Of a stretch of 64,000 nucleotides of DNA, positions 11,676-22,602 are shown one piece after another; the stretch's first letter is position 1; each line of letters starts with the position of its first letter. The position numbers and the translations under genes were made by a program. The DNA is from Bacillota bacterium (lineage in GTDB: Bacteria; Bacillota; Sulfobacillia; JAJZYS01; JAJZLH01): assembly GCA_021850485.1 (NCBI GenBank), contig JAJZLY010000029.1:1-64000 (forward strand). Direction: 5' to 3'. The notes beneath the pieces were generated by a model, which was not told where the DNA came from, searched no databases, and saw only the letters and a list, made by a program, of their open reading frames with translations.

Positions 11676-11703
11676 GGCACAGCGGAGGACCCTTCGGTCT
11701 GCT

Positions 11704-11791
11704 CCCGCTTCCCTCCGCTGGCATAACCCAGGTCAGGTTCGAAGGGTCGACCGAATGGTCTCTCAGCCTCAGCAGAGGCTCCCCTAGCGGC
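11704..11791 (-). promoter_or_regulatory. TPP (THI-box) riboswitch
   Basis: Read on the minus strand from 11791, the conserved THI elements appear in order: CTAGGGGAGCCT, GGCTGAGAG, GACCCTTCGAACCTGA, CTGGGTTATGCCAG and CGGAGGGAAGC. P1 pairs CCGCT (11790-11786) with AGCGG at the 3' end. The aptamer binds thiamin pyrophosphate. With the terminator just downstream it should act by premature transcription termination and control thiD-tenA-permease. Confidence 0.95.
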
Positions 11792-11850
11792 GTATCTCAA
11801 TCATCGTGGACCCAGCACGGGTCGCTGTCAACGGCGCCCGCAAACAGGAC

Positions 11851-13016: not shown

Positions 13017-13068
13017 GACAAACGTAAAGAAAACATGACAAAACGGCGATGTTCTGGAGGTGACGGGC

Positions 13069-14109
13069 GTGAACAGGGTGAGAGAACTGCGGCTGCAGCG
13101 GGCTCTGGCCCAGGCAGAGCTAGGGCGGCGCGCCGGGATCAGCCGCCAGGCCATAAACGCCATCGAACAAGGAAAGACCGGAACCAACGTGCAAACCGCC
13201 CTCAGCCTTGCCCGGGCGCTGAGCGTGTCGGTGGAGGATCTATTCGCAACGGAGGCCTGGCAGCGGGCGACCTGGCTGGATGGAGAGATTGCCCCGGCCG
13301 CCGGTATGCGGGTTGCCGTCGAGCGCTGGCAGAATACCCAGGTGGCGAAGCCGCTAGAGGCGTGCCCGCCGGAGTCGTCTCCAGCAGCACATGGCGTGGT
13401 GCGGCAGGTAGCCGGCGATGAGGTCCAGGTAGAAGTGTGGCAGTCACGCCCGGCGTTGTTCTTATACGGCTGTGACCCGTCGCTCGGACTGCTCGCCTCG
13501 CACCTGAGCCGAGGCAGCCGGGAGGGCTGGTGGTGGCATGCCACCAACGCTCAGGCTCTGGCGCTGCTGAGGGCCGAGCAGGCGCGGGTGGTGGCACTTC
13601 ACCACGGCGTCTTGGAAGCGCGCGCTGTGGACCGCAGCTGCCTGCGGATCCGTCTCGTCGGGTGGCAAAGCGGCTGGCTGGTGGCGCCCGGAAATCCTAA
13701 ACAGATCGCCGGCGCCGCCGATCTGCTTAGGCCCGACCTGCGCATCGGCGTGCGCGAGGAAGGAGCGGAAGGCCGCCGACTGCTGGATCAGCAGTTGGCA
13801 GCGTCCGGGGCGACCTGGCAGGCGTTGAACAGTCGGGCAGTGGTCGGCCGGAGCCAGTTGGCAGTGGCGAGAATGGTTGCACAAGGTCAGGTGGACATGG
13901 CCATCGGCCACGCTGGGGCGGCTGCCGCCTGGAATTGTGACCTGATACCAATTCGCGATGAAGTGACCGACCTGCTCCTTCCGAAGCACATGGCGGATCA
14001 ACCAGAGATTGCGGCGATGCTGACAATCCTGACGGGTTACCAGTTCCGTCGCGATCTGGCCGGCTCCGGCCCCTATGACACCGCCAGAACAGGAGATCAA
14101 GTTGGCTAG
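13069..14109 (+). CDS. XRE-HTH regulator fused to a periplasmic-binding-protein-like domain (molybdate-type one-component regulator)
   Basis: A 346-residue protein. Residues 1-60 are an XRE helix-turn-helix (RVRELRLQRALAQAELGRRAGISRQAINAIEQGKT). Residues about 115-330 form a PBP_like domain related to ModA/MopI sensors (FLYGCDPSLGLLASHLSR, then ARMVAQGQVDMAIGHAG). This architecture is known for regulators placed before molybdate or tungstate transporters, in which the binding domain senses the oxyanion. GTG 13069 has GGAGG 8 nt upstream. It overlaps the next gene by 8 nt, so sensor and transporter are co-expressed. Confidence 0.85.
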   Translation: MNRVRELRLQRALAQAELGRRAGISRQAINAIEQGKTGTNVQTALSLARALSVSVEDLFATEAWQRATWLDGEIAPAAGMRVAVERWQNTQVAKPLEACPPESSPAAHGVVRQVAGDEVQVEVWQSRPALFLYGCDPSLGLLASHLSRGSREGWWWHATNAQALALLRAEQARVVALHHGVLEARAVDRSCLRIRLVGWQSGWLVAPGNPKQIAGAADLLRPDLRIGVREEGAEGRRLLDQQLAASGATWQALNSRAVVGRSQLAVARMVAQGQVDMAIGHAGAAAAWNCDLIPIRDEVTDLLLPKHMADQPEIAAMLTILTGYQFRRDLAGSGPYDTARTGDQVG

Positions 14110-14992
14110 GGGCAGATGGCGGGGCCTGGCGATAGGCTCACTCGCGGTTGCGCTGGCGGGATGCGGGGCTAGCCAGGTGCCTGCTCCCGTGACCCATTCC
14201 GCCGTGGTGGTGCTTTATGCCGGCTCGCTGGTCCAGTTGATGACCCAGTCCATCACACCGGCGTACAACCGAGGCAGCGGGGACCAGCTGCAAGGATATC
14301 CAGGCGGTTCGGTGGCCCTCGCCAACGAAATCAAGGGCAAGTTGATTCAGGCTGACGTCTTCATCAGCGCCGAGCCATCGGTCAACGAGAGCCTGATGGG
14401 TAGCGCCAACGGCGGCTGGGTCACTTGGTATGCCACCTTCGCCAAGGCCCCGCTGGTCATCGGCTACAACCCGAGTAGCCGGTTTGCCAATCTCTTTAAA
14501 TCTGAACCTTGGTATCAGGTACTAACGACGCCCGGATTCCTCTTGGGGCGTACCGATCCGGCCCTGGATCCCAAGGGCGTACTGACCATCCAGGTGGTGC
14601 AGCGCCAAGCGCAGTTGTTGCACCGTCCGGGCTTGGTCAACCAGATGCTTGGTGCGGCTGAAAACCCGGCCCAGATCTTCCCGGAGCAAGAACTGGTTGG
14701 CCGGCTGCTGACCGGACAGCTGGACGGGGCCTTCTTCTATCAAAACGAGGCGGTTCAGGCCAAAATTCCCTATATCGCGCTGCCCGCTACAGTCGACCTC
14801 TCAGCTCTGTACACCGCGACGGTCTTGCATGGTGCCCGCCACCCGGCCGCGGCCCAAGCCCTGGTTGCCTTCTTGTACAGTTCCCAGGGACAAGCGTTGA
14901 TGCGCGCCAGTGGCCTGAGCCCGGTGACGCCGACCTTAACGGGGCGGCTGTCGGCAGTCCCGCCAAGCCTGAATCACTTATTCCACCGGTGA
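14102..14992 (+). CDS. Molybdate/tungstate-binding lipoprotein (ModA/WtpA type)
   Basis: A 296-residue extracellular solute-binding protein. The start is TTG 14102, with AGGAGA 7 nt upstream, followed by a lipoprotein signal with lipobox LAGC (SLAVALAGCGAS). The mature part has the WtpA-like pattern VVVLYAGSLVQLM, PGGSVALANEIKGKLIQADVFISAEP and FFYQNEAVQ, fitting the molybdate/tungstate subgroup more than sulfate. It delivers the oxyanion to the fused permease-ATPase downstream, whose start overlaps its stop (GTGA). An ATG nine codons upstream is possible but has no ribosome-binding site. Confidence 0.87.
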   Translation: MARGRWRGLAIGSLAVALAGCGASQVPAPVTHSAVVVLYAGSLVQLMTQSITPAYNRGSGDQLQGYPGGSVALANEIKGKLIQADVFISAEPSVNESLMGSANGGWVTWYATFAKAPLVIGYNPSSRFANLFKSEPWYQVLTTPGFLLGRTDPALDPKGVLTIQVVQRQAQLLHRPGLVNQMLGAAENPAQIFPEQELVGRLLTGQLDGAFFYQNEAVQAKIPYIALPATVDLSALYTATVLHGARHPAAAQALVAFLYSSQGQALMRASGLSPVTPTLTGRLSAVPPSLNHLFHR

Positions 14993-16779
14993 AGCCGATG
15001 CGGTCACCAGTCGCCATCCGCCTATTGGGTGGGCTTCTGGCGGTCTATCTCGGCCTGCCCCTGATCGTGCTGGTCGCCCACTTGGGCGTGGGGACCTGGC
15101 AGGCGATCGGTCAGGGGCCAACTCTGTCCGCAATGGCGACCTCGGTGGAGGCGGCCACTGTCTCGACCTTGATCATGGCGTTGGGCGGCATTCCCTTGGG
15201 ATACGTTCTGGCCCGCTCCCAGGGCAGGAGCAGCCGCCTGCTGGGATTGCTTGTCCAACTGCCATTGGCCCTGCCGCCGCTGGTGGCTGGCATCTTGTTG
15301 CTGCTTCTCGTCGGGCCCTATACCTTGGTCGGCACCCTGACCTCTGGGGCCCTCAGCCAGACCTTTCTCGGCATCGTCTTAGCACAGACCTTTGTGGCCT
15401 CACCGTTCGTCATTGTCAGCGCTAGGAGCGCCTTTCAGGCCATCGATCCTGAACTGATCGCAGTCGCCGCCACCTTGGGTGTGCGGCCCTTCGGTCAACT
15501 GTGGCGAGTGGCACTGCCGTTAGCCTGGCCGGGGATCATGGCCGGTCTGGCTCTAGGTTGGGTACGGGCGTTTGGCGAGTTCGGAGCGACCGTGATGCTG
15601 GCCTTCCATCCGTACTCCTTGCCGGTTGCCACCTACGTTGCCTTCGGCAGCAGCGGCCTGCCTGCCACCTTCGCTCCGGTCATGCTGGCGGCGGTGACGG
15701 GCTTGGGGTTTTTGGTGCTGGTCAGCCTGCTGCCGAGCAGGTGGCGGCGTAAACAGCAGCAGACCGCACTCAGCGCTTCACATCCACCGGCGCCAGCGGT
15801 CGCAGAGGACCTGTCTTTCTCCCTGCGCCGCCAGCTCCCAGGCTTCTCGCTGGATGTGGACTGGCCGGGCGGTGCCCGCCAACTTGCCATTCTCGGCCCG
15901 TCCGGCGCTGGCAAGACCGTGACCCTGCGGCTGCTGGCCGGAGTGGACCATGGCCAGGGCGAGATCAGGTATGGGCGCACGCGCATCGACCAGTTGCCTG
16001 CCGAGCAGCGCGCGATCGGTTACGTGCCGCAGCAGGGGGCCATCTTCCCGCATCTGAGCGTGGCCGATCAGGCGATCTTTGGGCGAGGTGCTGATCCGGG
16101 TGCAGCGGCCTTTTGGCTGCGGGAGATGGGCCTTTGGGCCCGCCTTGGGGCCTATGGGGACGAGCTGTCTGGAGGCGAACGCCAGCGGCTGGCCTTGGTG
16201 CGGGCGCTGGCTCGCAATCCGCAACTGCTGCTGTTGGACGAGCCTCTGTCTGCCCTGGACCAGCCCCTGCGCCGGGATCTGCGGCGGCAGATTGCGCACC
16301 TCTCTGCGGTGCGCGGACTACCGATGGTGGTGGTAACTCATGACCCAGAGGAGGCTTGGGCGCTCGCTGAGTCGGTGCTGGTGCTGGTTGGCGGCCGGGT
16401 GGCCCAGGCTGGGAGCCGTGAGCAGGTCTTTCACCGGCCCGCCTCTCCTGAGGTCGCTCGACTGGTGGGCTTCACCGACATCAACTCGGGGACGGTCGAT
16501 GGCCAAGGCGGGTTGGTCGTGGCTGGTGTTCGCCTCGCCATCCCGGATGCGGTGCACGCAGGTGCGGTGCGCTGGTCGGTGGCACCCGGCGGTGCGCAGC
16601 TCGACCCGGCGGGGCCGATACGCGGCCGGGTGGTTGAGCGGATCAGCCGCACCGACGGCACGGAGCTTACCGTGGACGCCATGGGAGCCAGGGTGACGCT
16701 GCGCGATGGGCGGCCCGGGGTGGCCGACCAGTGGGTGCAGTTTTCGATTCGACCGGAGGCAGTTGTGCTCTGGGCGTAG
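14989..16779 (+). CDS. Fused molybdate/tungstate ABC permease and ATPase (ModB-ModC)
   Basis: A 596-residue fusion. Residues about 10-250 are a ModB-type permease with five or six transmembrane helices and the EAA loop (AAATLGVRPFGQLWRVALPLAWPGI). Residues about 275-490 are the ATPase: Walker A GPSGAGKT near 303, Q-loop VPQQGAIFP, signature LSGGERQR, Walker B LLLLDEPLSALD and H-loop VVVTHD. The C-terminal 90 residues look like a TOBE/Mop domain that can bind the oxyanion. Normally these are two genes. The linker (SRWRRKQQQTALSASHPPAP) keeps the ATPase cytoplasmic. The GTG at 14989 overlaps the lipoprotein stop, and an ATG at 14998 is an alternative. Confidence 0.9.
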   Translation: MKPMRSPVAIRLLGGLLAVYLGLPLIVLVAHLGVGTWQAIGQGPTLSAMATSVEAATVSTLIMALGGIPLGYVLARSQGRSSRLLGLLVQLPLALPPLVAGILLLLLVGPYTLVGTLTSGALSQTFLGIVLAQTFVASPFVIVSARSAFQAIDPELIAVAATLGVRPFGQLWRVALPLAWPGIMAGLALGWVRAFGEFGATVMLAFHPYSLPVATYVAFGSSGLPATFAPVMLAAVTGLGFLVLVSLLPSRWRRKQQQTALSASHPPAPAVAEDLSFSLRRQLPGFSLDVDWPGGARQLAILGPSGAGKTVTLRLLAGVDHGQGEIRYGRTRIDQLPAEQRAIGYVPQQGAIFPHLSVADQAIFGRGADPGAAAFWLREMGLWARLGAYGDELSGGERQRLALVRALARNPQLLLLDEPLSALDQPLRRDLRRQIAHLSAVRGLPMVVVTHDPEEAWALAESVLVLVGGRVAQAGSREQVFHRPASPEVARLVGFTDINSGTVDGQGGLVVAGVRLAIPDAVHAGAVRWSVAPGGAQLDPAGPIRGRVVERISRTDGTELTVDAMGARVTLRDGRPGVADQWVQFSIRPEAVVLWA

Positions 16780-16794
16780 CCTGAGATGCGGGTG

Positions 16795-16803
16795 TGCTAC
16801 ACT
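16795..16803 (+). promoter_or_regulatory. Extended -10 promoter of the pyruvate dehydrogenase operon
   Basis: TGCTACACT (TGn plus TACACT) lies just after the fused ModBC gene, with no recognisable -35. A start near 16810 gives an aceE leader of about 105 nt that contains the two alternative hairpins described next. Confidence 0.45.
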
Positions 16804-16867
16804 GATTCGGCAGCTTTGTAGCTTCCCAACCACAGCGTGATCTTGATGAATGCCGAGAGGTGCTGAC

Positions 16868-16909
16868 GGAGCCCGCCCGGGCTCCTCCCCTGTCTCGGCC
16901 GGGAGGGGC
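16868..16909 (+). promoter_or_regulatory. Alternative hairpins in the aceE leader, one hiding the ribosome-binding site
   Basis: Hairpin 1 is GGAGCCC (16868-16874) with GGGCTCC (16879-16885) around GCCC. Hairpin 2 is GCTCCTCCC (16881-16889) with GGGAGGGGC (16901-16909), nine pairs including one G-U. It uses five bases of hairpin 1's 3' arm and buries the Shine-Dalgarno GGGAGGGG at 16901-16908, 7 nt before the aceE ATG. The two cannot form together, so the leader could switch translation on (hairpin 1) or off (hairpin 2). No trigger is evident. Confidence 0.45.
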
Positions 16910-16915
16910 GCCAAG

Positions 16916-19600
16916 ATGGCGATCGAAGAGAAGAGCGGGGCGGACCCTGAGCAGGCGGTAGAGCTCCAAGAGTGGCGCGAGTCTTTGGACTACGTACTGG
17001 CGCAAGCAGATCCCCAGCGCGTCAGGGACCTGCTGGAGGCCCTGTGGTCGCAAGCTCAGGCCGCCGGTGTTGAACCTGCAGCGCCAGGACGCACCACCGG
17101 TTACGTCAACACCATTGCTGCCAGAGACGAGGCCGACTATCCAGGCGATCTGGCACTGGAAGCGAAGATCGACGCTCACCTCAGGTGGAACGCAGCCGCC
17201 ATGGTGGTGCGGGCAAACCGGAAAAAAGAGGGTATCGGCGGCCACCTTGCCTCCTATGCCTCGATCGCTACCCTCTATGAGGTTGGCTTCAACCACGCCT
17301 TCGTTGCCGCCGTTGGTGCCGACAGTGGCGACCAGGTGTTTTTCCAGGGCCACTCCGCTCCCGGTATCTACGCCCGCGCCTTTCTGGAAGGGCGGCTGAG
17401 CGAGACCCAGCTCGCCAATTTCCGTCGGGAACTGGCGGAAGGCGGTGGTCTGTCCTCGTATCCCCATCCCTGGCTGATGCCCGCCTTCTGGCAGTTCCCG
17501 ACCGTGTCCATGGGCCTGGGTCCGCTGATGGCCGTGTACCAGGCCCGATTCAATCGCTACCTGAGCCAGCGCAGCCTGAAGGACACCTCGCACAGTCGGG
17601 TGTGGGCCTTTTTGGGAGACGGCGAAACGGATGAACCCGAGGCGCTGTCCGCCATCCGATTGGCCAGCCGCGAGCACCTGAACAACCTCACCTTCGTGGT
17701 CAACTGCAACCTGCAGCGGCTGGACGGGCCAGTGCGCGGCAACGGCAAGGTGGTTCAGGAGCTCGAGGGTTTGTTTGCCGGCGCCGGCTGGCGGGTGATC
17801 AAGGTGCTGTGGAGCCGGGCCTGGGACCCGTTGTTCGAGCGAGACCGCCACGGCGACCTGGCGGCCCGGTTGGCCGAGATCACGGACGGCGAGTATCAGC
17901 AATGCTTGGCCGGTGGGCCCAGCGTACTGCGCCAGGTGGTCTTCAATACCCCAGCCACCCAGCGCCTGATCGCGGGCATGGACGAGGCGGGACTGGCTGA
18001 GCTGATCCCCGGCGGCTTGGACCCGGTGAAAGTCTACAGCGCCTACCGGGAGGCCATGGATGAGCCAAATCGGCCGACCGTAATCTTGGCCCAGACGGTG
18101 AAGGGGTATCGCTTGGGGTCCGAGTTGGAAGCCAGGAATCTGACCCACGACCAAAAGAAGATTTCCGCCGAGTCTCTGATCGCACTCAGAGATCGCCTGG
18201 GTCTTAAGATCCCGGACCAGGCCGTGACCAAGGAACCGCCGTTTGTGCCGCTGGCCAAGGGATCCAAAGAAATGGCGTACTTGCAGGCGCGCCGCCAGGC
18301 TCTGGGCGGATCACTGCCCGCCAGGCGGCCGTTTGGCGAAACCCTTCCCGAGGCTGAGGACAAGGTGTTCGCCGAGTTTGACTTGGGCTCCGAACGGCCT
18401 GTCTCTACCACCATGGCCACGGTGCGGCTCTTGACCAACCTGTTGCGGGACCCCGGTCTGGGGGCCAGAGTGGTGCCGATCGTTCCGGACGAGGCCCGCA
18501 CCTTCGGCATGGAAAGCCTGTTTCGCATGATCGGCATCTACAACCCAGACGGTCAGCGCTATCAGCCGGTGGATGCCGGCACGCTGCTGCCCTATCGCGA
18601 AGCCAAGAACGGTCAGTTGCTGGAAGAGGGAATCAACGAGGCCGGAGCCATGGCCTCGTTCATCGCGGCCGCCACCTCCGGGATCACCCATCAGGTGGCG
18701 ACCATCCCCTTTTACTGGTTCTACTCCCAATTCGGCTTGCAGCGGATTGGCGATCTGGTCTGGGCGGCAGGCGAGATGCGCAGCCGCGGGTTTCTGTTGG
18801 CCGGACTTTCCGGCCGCACCCAGTTGCAGGGAGAGGGTCTGCAGCACCAAGACGGTGGCAGCCACCTGTTGGCCATGCAGTACCCGACGCTCGAGGCCTA
18901 TGATCCGGCGTTCGCCTATGAGGCGGCGGTGGTGATCAAAGACGGTCTCAGGCGCATGCTCAAGCGGCGCGAGATGGTGTTTTACTACCTGACCCTGGGC
19001 AACGAGACGTACCCGCAGCCGCACCGGCCCAAAGGCGTCAGCGATCAGGCCATCTTGGCCGGGCTCTACCCGTACGCCACAGAGCAGGCTGCGGCCAAAG
19101 GCAAGGAAAAGCCGCCAATAGTCCAGATCATGGCTCAAGGGGTGCTGATCCATCAGGCCATCGCCGCCCAGGGCCTGCTCAAAGAACAAGGGGTTTCCTC
19201 TGAGGTGCTCTCCATGCCCTCGATCAAGGCGTTGCACCGCGACGCCTCTGACCAAGAGCGTCTGCGCCTGCTTGGGGAGCCGAGCCGACCCTGCCATTTG
19301 GCGGAGGTGTTGGGGGACAGGGCAGATGCGGTGGTAGCCGTCTCCGACTATGTGCGCGCCCTGCCCGACAGCCTGGGCCGCTGGGTGAAGGCGCCGTTTG
19401 CCACCCTGGGCACGGACGGATTTGGTCGGAGCGAGGGCCACGAGGAGCTGCGCACATTCTTCGAAGTCGATGGCGCGCACATTGCCTACGCTTCGCTGGC
19501 CCTGCTGGTGGAAGCCGGCAAGTTGGACAAAACGGTGCTGAAGACGGCCAAGAAGGCTTGGCAGATCGACACCAAGGCTGCCCATCCGCGCAGCCGTTAA
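16916..19600 (+). CDS. aceE: Pyruvate dehydrogenase E1 component, homodimeric type
   Basis: An 894-residue single-chain thiamin-diphosphate E1 of the AceE type (E. coli AceE is 887 residues). Seen: RRWNAAAMVV-like LRWNAAAMVVRANRK, HLASYASIATLYEVGFNHAF, DQVFFQGHSAPGIYARAFLEG, and the ThDP-binding core VWAFLGDGETDEPEAL with GDGE followed by NLTFVVNCNLQRLDGPV. The C-terminal half carries FGMESLFRMIGIY and QGEGLQHQDGGS. It decarboxylates pyruvate and acetylates the lipoyl group of the E2 next door. ATG 16916 follows GGGAGGGG. It is the first gene of a three-gene operon, with a leader that can fold over this site. Confidence 0.96.
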   Translation: MAIEEKSGADPEQAVELQEWRESLDYVLAQADPQRVRDLLEALWSQAQAAGVEPAAPGRTTGYVNTIAARDEADYPGDLALEAKIDAHLRWNAAAMVVRANRKKEGIGGHLASYASIATLYEVGFNHAFVAAVGADSGDQVFFQGHSAPGIYARAFLEGRLSETQLANFRRELAEGGGLSSYPHPWLMPAFWQFPTVSMGLGPLMAVYQARFNRYLSQRSLKDTSHSRVWAFLGDGETDEPEALSAIRLASREHLNNLTFVVNCNLQRLDGPVRGNGKVVQELEGLFAGAGWRVIKVLWSRAWDPLFERDRHGDLAARLAEITDGEYQQCLAGGPSVLRQVVFNTPATQRLIAGMDEAGLAELIPGGLDPVKVYSAYREAMDEPNRPTVILAQTVKGYRLGSELEARNLTHDQKKISAESLIALRDRLGLKIPDQAVTKEPPFVPLAKGSKEMAYLQARRQALGGSLPARRPFGETLPEAEDKVFAEFDLGSERPVSTTMATVRLLTNLLRDPGLGARVVPIVPDEARTFGMESLFRMIGIYNPDGQRYQPVDAGTLLPYREAKNGQLLEEGINEAGAMASFIAAATSGITHQVATIPFYWFYSQFGLQRIGDLVWAAGEMRSRGFLLAGLSGRTQLQGEGLQHQDGGSHLLAMQYPTLEAYDPAFAYEAAVVIKDGLRRMLKRREMVFYYLTLGNETYPQPHRPKGVSDQAILAGLYPYATEQAAAKGKEKPPIVQIMAQGVLIHQAIAAQGLLKEQGVSSEVLSMPSIKALHRDASDQERLRLLGEPSRPCHLAEVLGDRADAVVAVSDYVRALPDSLGRWVKAPFATLGTDGFGRSEGHEELRTFFEVDGAHIAYASLALLVEAGKLDKTVLKTAKKAWQIDTKAAHPRSR

Positions 19601-19622: not shown

Positions 19623-20933
19623 ATGGCGAGCGACTTTCGACTCCCCAAGCTGGCCGAAAAGGAGACCACCGGGACGGTGGCCCGGGTCACCGTGGCCGCT
19701 GGCGATGTGATCGAGAGCGGTCAGGTGGTGGCCGAGGTGGAGACCGAAAAAGCCGTGGTGGAGGTGCCGGCGGAGTCTGGTGGCACCGTTGTGAAGGTGT
19801 ACGTGAGGGCCGGCGACGAGGTCAAAGAAGGAACGCTGCTGCTGCGGGTCGAGACCGGCAACGGCGCATCCGAGCAGGCTTCCGCTCCGGCACAGGCGAC
19901 CGAGGCCGATGAGACGAAAGCTGCGGACCCATCTCCCCCAGCACGAACGCAACCCAAAGCCGCCCCGGATGAGACGCTTGCAGCGAAAACGGACGATCTA
20001 GACGAGGATGAGGCTTTGGCCGAGCCGGCTGCCGCTTCAGACAATGTGCGTGCGCTGGTGCCAGCGGCGCCGTCTGTGCGCAGGCTGGCGCGCGAGCTGG
20101 GCATCGCCATCGGCCAGGTGGCTGGCTCCGGCCCGCACGGCCGGGTCAGCGAGGCCGACGTCAAGGCCCATGCCAAGAGGCTGATCACTGGCGGCAGCGG
20201 ACGAGGGGGCGAGGCGCTGCCGGATTTCAGCCGCTGGGGCGAGGTCCAGCGGGAGAAGCTGTCAGCGGTGCGCAAGGCCACGGCCCACCACTTGAGCAGG
20301 TCGTGGCCGCAGGTGCCTCAGGTGACGCAGTTTGATCGGGCGGATGTCACCTTGCTGGAGGCGGCCCGTCGGCACCACGTGCAAGACCAGGGCGCAGTGA
20401 AGGTGACGCCCACCGCCGTGTTGCTCTATGTGGCAGCCCGCCTGATCCGCGAATCGCCGAAGTTTCGCTCGAGTCTGGATCTGGCCCATGAGGAATTGAT
20501 CGTCAAGGAGTCCGTGCACATCGGGGTGGCCGTGGACACCGAGCGCGGCCTGCTGGTGCCAGTGGTGCGCGACGCTGACAAGAGGTCTTTGCTTCAACTC
20601 GCCCGTGACCTGACAGAGCTCAGCCTGCGAGCGCGTGAGGCTAAGCTGGGACTGGCTGAGATGGAGGGCGGGGTCTTCACCATCTCGAACCTCGGCGGGA
20701 TCGGCGGCAGCGGCTTCACACCGGTGGTGAACTGGCCTGAGACGGCGATTTTGGGCGTCGCCCGCACCGCCACCGAGCCGGTGTGGCAAGATGGCGCCTT
20801 TGTGCCAAGGGATCTGATGCCCCTGTCGCTGTCCTACGATCACCGGGTGATCGATGGGGCTGAGGCAGCCCGGTTCTTGCGCCAACTGTGTGAGCGGCTC
20901 GAGGATCCGTTTCACCTGATGCTGGAGGGATGA
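19623..20933 (+). CDS. aceF: Dihydrolipoamide acetyltransferase (E2 of pyruvate dehydrogenase)
   Basis: A 436-residue E2 with one lipoyl domain (residues 1-78; lipoyl Lys43 in ETEKAVVEV), an acidic/Ala-Pro linker, a peripheral-subunit-binding domain (about 140-178; VPAAPSVRRLARELGI then GSGPHGRVSEADV) and a catalytic core (about 200-436) ending in the chloramphenicol-acetyltransferase-like motif HRVIDG with His407 and Asp411. ATG 19623 is preceded by AAGGAGGA, and the gene lies 22 bp after aceE. A single lipoyl domain contrasts with the three of E. coli AceF, although the partner E1 is the AceE type. Confidence 0.95.
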   Translation: MASDFRLPKLAEKETTGTVARVTVAAGDVIESGQVVAEVETEKAVVEVPAESGGTVVKVYVRAGDEVKEGTLLLRVETGNGASEQASAPAQATEADETKAADPSPPARTQPKAAPDETLAAKTDDLDEDEALAEPAAASDNVRALVPAAPSVRRLARELGIAIGQVAGSGPHGRVSEADVKAHAKRLITGGSGRGGEALPDFSRWGEVQREKLSAVRKATAHHLSRSWPQVPQVTQFDRADVTLLEAARRHHVQDQGAVKVTPTAVLLYVAARLIRESPKFRSSLDLAHEELIVKESVHIGVAVDTERGLLVPVVRDADKRSLLQLARDLTELSLRAREAKLGLAEMEGGVFTISNLGGIGGSGFTPVVNWPETAILGVARTATEPVWQDGAFVPRDLMPLSLSYDHRVIDGAEAARFLRQLCERLEDPFHLMLEG

Positions 20934-20935
20934 TC

Positions 20936-22348
20936 ATGGCAAAGACGGATCAGGTGGCAGAGTTGGTGGTGGTGGGCGGTGGACCGGGCGGCTATGCGGC
21001 TGCCTTCCACGCCGCCGATTTGGGGCTGAGCGTAACCCTGATCGACCCAGAGAAAAATCCCGGTGGGGTGTGCCTGTATCGGGGATGCATCCCGTCCAAG
21101 GCGCTGTTGCACGTGGCCCGGGTGATTGGCGAGGCCAAAGAGTCAGAGACGGCCGGGGTCAGCTTTGGGGCTCCGAAGATCGATCTCGACAAATTGCGCA
21201 CCTTCAAAACGGGGGTGGTGGAGCGATTGACCAGCGGGCTCGGCCAGCTGAGCCGGGCGCGCAAGATCACCTTCATCCAGGGCCGAGCTCGGTTTACCGC
21301 TGCCAACGAGCTGGAGGTGACCGGCGTAGACGGCGCCAAGAGCCGTCTGAGCTTTACCCAGGCCATCATCGCCACCGGATCGCGGGCGGCCACACTCAAG
21401 ACCCTTCCCGACCATGAGCGGGTGATGAATTCACGCCAAGCTCTCGACCTGCCCGATATCCCGAAGCGGCTTCTGGTGGTGGGCGGTGGCTACATTGGCG
21501 CCGAGATGGCCAGCGTCTATGCGGCGCTCGGCTCCAAAGTCACGATGGTGGAACTCACCGGCGGTCTTTTACCCGGTGTCGACCGCGACTTGGTAAAACC
21601 GCTCGAGACACGGATCAAAACCGTGCTGGAGTCGTTGTTGCTCAAAACCAAGGTGGCCTCGGCCAAGGTCCAGGGCAAAGCTGTTCTGGTCGAGTTTGAT
21701 GGCCCAGACGGCAAGAGGCAGGAGACCTTCGACCGGTTGCTGGTGGCGGTCGGGCGGGTGCCGAACAGTCAGGACATCGGCCTGGACAAGTTGGGCATCG
21801 CAGTCGACGACAAGGGGTTCATACCTGTCGACTTGGCGAGGCGAACGAAACTCGCCCACATTTTTGCCATTGGCGATGTGGCCGGTCAGCCGATGCTGGC
21901 TCATAAGGCCAGTCACGAGGGCCAGGTGGCGGCCGCCGCCGCCGCTGGCAAGAAGGTGGCCTTTGAGCCGCAGGCCATTCCGGCTGTGGTGTTCACCGAT
22001 CCTGAGGTGGCCTGGTGTGGCCTGACCGAAGACGACGCCAAGCGAACCGGAGTTGAAGTGAAGATCGGGAAGTTCCCCTGGGCCGCCTCGGGGCGGGCGC
22101 TGACCATGGGCCGGTCGGACGGTCTGACCAAGATCGTGGTCGAGGCTGCAACCGGCCGCGTGCTCGGAGTTGGCTTGGTGGGACCTGGTGCCGGAGAGCT
22201 GATTGCCGAAGGAGTGCTGGCGGTGGAAATGGCTGCCGTGGCCGATGACCTGGCGCTCACCATCCACCCTCACCCCACGCTGTCCGAGACCGTCATGGAG
22301 GCTGCTGCATCGGTGTTTGGCAAGAGCCTGCACTACTACGGGCGCTAG
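20936..22348 (+). CDS. lpd: Dihydrolipoamide dehydrogenase (E3)
   Basis: A 470-residue flavoprotein. FAD loop VVVGGGPGGYAAAFHAADLG, redox-active Cys46/Cys51 in CLYRGCIPSK, NAD loop VVGGGYIGAEMASVYAALG, second FAD segment FAIGDVAGQPMLAHKASHEG and catalytic His-Glu near the end (IHPHPTLSETVMEA). It reoxidises the E2 lipoyl group with NAD. The ATG at 20936 is preferred because GGAGGG lies 6 nt upstream. An ATG at 20930 overlaps the aceF stop and is possible. It is the last gene of the operon. Confidence 0.96.
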   Translation: MAKTDQVAELVVVGGGPGGYAAAFHAADLGLSVTLIDPEKNPGGVCLYRGCIPSKALLHVARVIGEAKESETAGVSFGAPKIDLDKLRTFKTGVVERLTSGLGQLSRARKITFIQGRARFTAANELEVTGVDGAKSRLSFTQAIIATGSRAATLKTLPDHERVMNSRQALDLPDIPKRLLVVGGGYIGAEMASVYAALGSKVTMVELTGGLLPGVDRDLVKPLETRIKTVLESLLLKTKVASAKVQGKAVLVEFDGPDGKRQETFDRLLVAVGRVPNSQDIGLDKLGIAVDDKGFIPVDLARRTKLAHIFAIGDVAGQPMLAHKASHEGQVAAAAAAGKKVAFEPQAIPAVVFTDPEVAWCGLTEDDAKRTGVEVKIGKFPWAASGRALTMGRSDGLTKIVVEAATGRVLGVGLVGPGAGELIAEGVLAVEMAAVADDLALTIHPHPTLSETVMEAAASVFGKSLHYYGR

Positions 22349-22538: not shown

Positions 22539-22579
22539 TTTACCGATCGCGACCCTATGCTATACTTCATAAAGCATAG
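22539..22579 (+). promoter_or_regulatory. Promoter and possible operator of kamA
   Basis: TTTACC (22539-22544), 16 bp spacer, then TATACT (22561-22566) with a TGC extension. An inverted repeat, CTATGCT at 22555-22561 and AGCATAG at 22573-22579, brackets the -10 and the expected start site and could be an operator for an unknown regulator. Confidence 0.55.
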
Positions 22580-22602
22580 CGAAAGTTTTGGGAGGCATGT
22601 TC

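Follow-up and report, generated by a model that had tools for sequence, protein, structure and literature searches.

Two candidate leader RNAs described upstream of aceE, the gene that heads the pyruvate dehydrogenase operon, are the closest known counterparts of the element we report here. The aceE motif of the gamma-Proteobacteria is a candidate cis-regulatory RNA located before aceE, which its authors mark as uncertain both as an RNA and as a switch (PMC2864571, table 1). The aceE-II motif is known from 25 sequences, all from Thioalkalivibrio; it is a strong riboswitch candidate and an orphan, for which pyruvate or a related signal has been guessed as the ligand (PMC11109978). The element we found shares their position in front of aceE, the first gene of the pyruvate dehydrogenase operon. 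Compared by description, it resembles aceE-II in being limited to one genus, strongly conserved and found only before an aceE that heads an operon with aceF and lpd; however, aceE-II is gammaproteobacterial and has 25 representatives, whereas there are three here. The likeness to the aceE motif, again by description, is that of a candidate cis-regulatory RNA before aceE, but in another phylum. Because of this difference in phylum, homology to either motif is unlikely, and we set the element beside them by description only. It is best filed next to aceE and aceE-II as a genus-limited leader candidate, and we claim membership neither in these motifs nor among the riboswitches.

The window (the whole stretch of 64,000 nucleotides that was analysed) comes from a 1.6-Mb draft genome. 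The initial annotation named the gene behind the leader aceE, and this identification is correct: the frame at 16916-19600 on the plus strand encodes a pyruvate dehydrogenase E1 of the homodimeric type (TIGR00759, 1160 bits against a cutoff of 860). It is 80% identical to its homologue on JAJZLH010000074.1, from a 'Bacillota bacterium' metagenome assembly that is the closest named relative. Two genes follow on the same strand: aceF, dihydrolipoyllysine acetyltransferase or E2 (19623-20933; best match TIGR01348, 448 bits, below the cutoff of 552), which is probably in one operon with aceE, and lpd, dihydrolipoyl dehydrogenase or E3 (20930-22348; TIGR01350, above cutoff), which overlaps the end of aceF. 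Directly before aceE, the stretch 13060-16779 encodes a helix-turn-helix protein with a molybdopterin-biosynthesis-like partner domain, a WtpA/ModA-like binding protein and a fused permease-ATPase, which probably form an operon for the uptake of molybdate or tungstate.

Our comparison set consists of the window species (G000) and G001 and G002, the only other species of the genus. A conserved putative extended -10 promoter of the aceE operon, TGCTACACT, lies at 16794-16802 on the plus strand, and the string GGTGTGCTACACTG is unchanged in all three species; transcription would be expected to start near 16809. Given this invariant extended -10, the aceE leader is likely about 107 nt long, close to the 105 nt of the initial annotation. 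Similar sites are TGCTATACT before kamA and GCTATGCT, comparably placed before aceE in order-level relatives. The promoter and short leader of kamA (lysine 2,3-aminomutase family; 22554-22600) are nearly invariant in the three species; the TGCTATACT -10 overlaps the inverted repeat GCTATAC/GCATAGC, and the Shine-Dalgarno (SD) sequence GGGAGG and the ATG at 22597 follow. The SD region of aceE, as read from the sequence, is GGGAGGGG at 16901-16908 (plus strand), and it differs among the species, being GGAAGGGG in G002 and GGGAGGAA in G001.

Between promoter and SD lie two nested inverted repeats, all of whose parts are on the plus strand. The inner one, P2, pairs GGAGCCC (16868-16874) with GGGCTCC (16879-16885); it is the first hairpin of the initial annotation, present as described there, and both arms are invariant in the three species. 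The outer one, P1, did not appear in that annotation and bounds a 48-nt core at 16852-16899. Its 5' arm GCCGAGA (16852-16858) is invariant, and its 3' arm TCTCGGC (16893-16899) ends one base before the SD region; an eighth pair, C-G at 16859/16892, is present in both sister species and lost in the window species. P2 is nested in P1 with centres that coincide to within a base, as is the case for nested RNA stems. In the internal loop between them, the strand TCCCCT (16886-16891) is invariant, and its CCCCT could pair with the SD in two of the three species.

The core is conserved far beyond its surroundings. In the three-species leader alignment, 29 of the 31 positions of the block 16868-16898, which contains P2 and the 3' arm of P1, are invariant, as compared to a three-way identity of 0.65 across 16.6 kb of synteny and of 0.32-0.48 in three other intergenic stretches there. 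Coding sequence could in principle account for such a block if aceE began at the ATG at 16850 and the conserved DNA were its N-terminus; this conserved ATG does start a frame that runs into aceE in G000 and G002. In G001, however, it is out of frame because of a one-base difference in length, and this loss of the frame speaks against an N-terminal extension. Moreover, third codon positions hardly vary in the block, and the ATG at 16850 has no evident SD while the ATG at 16916 has a good one. We therefore consider the coding explanation extremely unlikely. A leader peptide was rejected along with the extension, as the frame is not maintained in G001.

The changes that do occur fall where pairing would predict them. 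Only 2 of 30 paired columns within the element vary, against 7 of 18 unpaired ones (Fisher p = 0.009), and the proportion of pairs that can form drops from 98% to 31-56% once partners are shifted by one to three columns. All seven P2 pairs are invariant in the three species. In P1, C16899 is replaced by T in G002, which turns the pair into G-U. No compensatory change was found at any P1/P2 pair, as the genus offers just three sequences and these hardly vary in the core; the evidence for pairing thus consists of stability, the location of the changes and one G-U replacement rather than covariation. Where an aptamer-like structure with covariation was sought, we find P1/P2 conserved without compensatory pairs in just three sequences.

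The core is also unusually stable in all three species. Its z-scores are -3.0, -5.0 and -4.0, for core ends that were picked after inspection of the sequence. A less biased estimate comes from a scan of 48-nt windows on both strands of the 16.6-kb syntenic stretch, in which 2 of 7826 windows are as stable as the core in all three species. These two overlap and mark one place inside lpd, so that the hairpin at 20970-21021, within the 5' portion of the lpd reading frame, is the sole other equally stable 48-nt hairpin in the stretch. The entire leader, folded as 16808-16940, is no stabler than shuffled sequence (z = 0.24). This last result, together with the ease with which long inverted repeats arise in G+C-rich sequence, is what one would expect if the hairpin were a functionless product of base composition. 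Against this stand the 29/31 invariance amid fast-changing intergenic DNA and the extreme core stability retained in three species, and we regard chance as very unlikely. Predicted pairing probabilities are mostly 0.95-1.0 for P2, with a minimum of 0.88, whereas P1 reaches only 0.03-0.08 in two species when the full leader is folded with 36 nt of coding sequence, under which conditions other structures are favoured.

The initial annotation had proposed that hairpin 1 and a second stem, GCTCCTCCC (16881-16889) with GGGAGGGGC (16901-16909), form mutually exclusively and thereby control access to the ribosome-binding site. The second inverted repeat exists and shares bases 16881-16885 with hairpin 1; the SD region makes up most of its right arm, which covers the aceE SD 7 nt before the ATG at 16916. 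However, in each sister species, G001 and G002, a single pair of stem 2 is broken and not compensated, and the 9-bp stem never exceeds a probability of 0.05, whichever of the three species and of the tried lengths is folded, because P2 is stronger. Forcing stem 2 to form raises the energy by about 3-4 kcal/mol in the window species, by 11-15 in G002 and by 6-8 in G001. In view of its conservation and its energy we reject stem 2 as the switch, and the proposed pair of alternative hairpins is not supported, stem 2 being broken in the sisters without compensation and thermodynamically negligible. Absence of conservation or compensatory change of the stems in relatives had been set beforehand as the refuting outcome. 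It holds for stem 2 and by half for stem 1, which is conserved but, being wholly invariant, has no compensatory change. What survives of the proposed regulatory leader geometry is a structured element under strong selection that adjoins the SD; the hairpin 1/stem 2 pair does not.

The SD may be buried in another way. In the best fold of 16808-16940, hairpin 1 coexists with a 5-bp hairpin that pairs CCCCU (16887-16891) with AGGGG (16904-16908), which means that burial of the SD is possible without opening hairpin 1. This SD hairpin excludes P1. Up to 15 nt past the ATG, P1/P2 is predicted at -45.1 and the SD hairpin at -45.8 kcal/mol in the window species, and the two differ by a few kcal/mol in G002. 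Since they exclude each other at similar energies in G000 and G002, any switch would be one of P1 against the SD hairpin. In G001 the SD hairpin is down to three pairs and P1/P2 is ahead by 7-9 kcal/mol, so that such a switch is possible and, according to the folding predictions, could form in only two of the three species. No SD-sequestering stem is kept in all three, stem 2 being broken in both sisters and the SD hairpin in G001. A translational switch in which a metabolite or protein stabilises P1/P2, with the SD open, against the SD hairpin would agree with the nearly equal energies in two species, with the invariance of the UCCCCU internal-loop strand despite its being unpaired, and with the orphan riboswitch candidates published before aceE in other lineages (PMC11109978, PMC2864571). 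The geometry is like that of SD-sequestering translational riboswitches in that an SD-burying hairpin competes with upstream structure, but differs in that not every one of the three species retains the SD-burying stem and no conserved ligand pocket is evident. The loop strand GUGnnnnn is mostly variable, which is why a compact conserved pocket is not apparent, and this counts against the switch, as do the dominance of P1/P2 in G001, the lack of copies at other genes and the lack of a known riboswitch match. None of the observations points to a ligand. We consider the switch unlikely.

The main rival explanation is that the nested palindromes act as DNA, as an operator that binds a transcription factor just downstream of the promoter. 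Seen as DNA, the arms of P1 and P2 make palindromes that are perfect or nearly so, P2 has the form GGAGCCC-N4-GGGCTCC with a variable centre, and a binding site might produce similar conservation. Regulation at this level has some plausibility in the order, as the aceE genes of five genomes of a related genus, g5 (L006, L008 and L149-L151), have several spaced repeats upstream, of the types TGTCCATAGGG, CGTCCATACGGTG and CGGCCATATGGTG; the TGTCCATAGGG-type sites make transcriptional control plausible, which favours an operator. These repeats sit between aceE and what in L006 appears to be a divergent lpd start, and they are possibly operators of a pyruvate dehydrogenase regulator. On the other hand, the concentric geometry and the invariant 6-nt TCCCCT strand are not features of a palindrome, and the C-to-T change in P1 destroys the DNA symmetry yet retains the RNA pair; these points count against an operator but are not decisive. 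The site would be situated some 45-90 nt past the inferred transcription start, and the P2 palindrome occurs once in two of the genomes, while G001 has two further matches to it, one exact and one near. An operator therefore appears rather improbable to us. In another related genus (L007, L009, L013 and L152), a different sequence, GCCGG[A/T]GGAACGCTACGTCCGTCCGGGACGCGGCACCGG, extends over about 40 nt around the presumed transcription start, just after the aceE -10. It differs by one base across three species and is partly kept in the fourth, and in one of these genomes an outer inverted repeat, GCCGGTG/CACCGGC, flanks it.

The distribution of the element is narrow. Each of the three genomes of the genus has a single copy, always before aceE, and no further copies of the whole element were found in them. 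When 154 genomes from the class and 398 from the phylum were searched with a P1/P2 covariance model, none gave a convincing match. Weak matches scored 20-33 bits in the class, and one in the phylum sample scored 29.6 bits; those that we read look like coding sequence, terminator-like G+C-rich hairpins with T runs and other chance matches, none of them an aceE leader, and were rejected as homologues. The search also covered 80 aceE genes of other phyla, where only the sister species gave a leader match, and viral contigs, where there was none. In the order-level relatives (two genera, nine genomes) the aceE leaders lack P1/P2; they are of comparable length, follow a comparable -10 and contain other conserved stretches.

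No riboswitch or leader family of Rfam 15 reaches its gathering score in the leader of the window or in those of the sister species, and at E values up to 5 the window leader gives only chance matches to microRNA, snoRNA and lncRNA models. A known family is thus rejected as the identity of the element; the initial annotation had likewise recognised no known riboswitch class. The TPP riboswitch (RF00059) was the obvious candidate because one is present elsewhere in the window and aceE encodes a TPP enzyme, but the aceE leader matches it at no threshold used. The copy in the window lies at 11693-11795 on the minus strand (74.7 bits), before a thiD-like gene, and 46 of 48 positions are invariant over 11702-11749. 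The true start of the thiD-like gene is further in, as its listed start at 11724 falls inside the riboswitch.

On balance, we favour the explanation that the aceE leader carries a genus-limited, cis-acting structured RNA element that locally controls the aceE-aceF-lpd mRNA, a reading we hold to be somewhat probable. The sequences show its conservation, its unusual stability in all three species and its single copy before aceE; that the element acts as RNA, that it controls translation or decay, and that a factor may bind it are inferred. Weighing against this explanation are the lack of compensatory changes, the P1 pair lost in the window species, the low P1 probability when the full leader is folded with coding sequence, the absence of P1/P2 from the leaders of order-level relatives, and the similar conservation that a DNA-binding site could produce. 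P1, P2 and the UCCCCU internal-loop strand would fold into a stem-loop with a single base between it and the SD. The tract CUCCUCCCCU, which is invariant, rich in pyrimidines and clearly a potential pairing partner for the SD, would be held in or next to the stems, leaving the SD open. In two of the three species, loss of P1 could free this tract for pairing with the SD. The most likely role would be control of translation or of the stability of the aceE-aceF-lpd mRNA, and this control may be either constitutive, with the SD kept open and the message protected, or set by a bound protein or metabolite.

More speculatively, and in our estimate doubtful, the element could represent a new class of orphan riboswitch or autoregulatory leader that senses the pyruvate/acetyl-CoA state, restricted to this genus and independent of the gammaproteobacterial motifs. 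To our knowledge, neither pyruvate nor acetyl-CoA has an established riboswitch so far. If the element is a passive stabilising hairpin, its significance is small. It offers a small, cleanly bounded 48-nt element for testing. As a third, unrelated-looking case of an aceE leader, in a different phylum, it would suggest that control by leader RNA has arisen repeatedly at the entry to acetyl-CoA synthesis.
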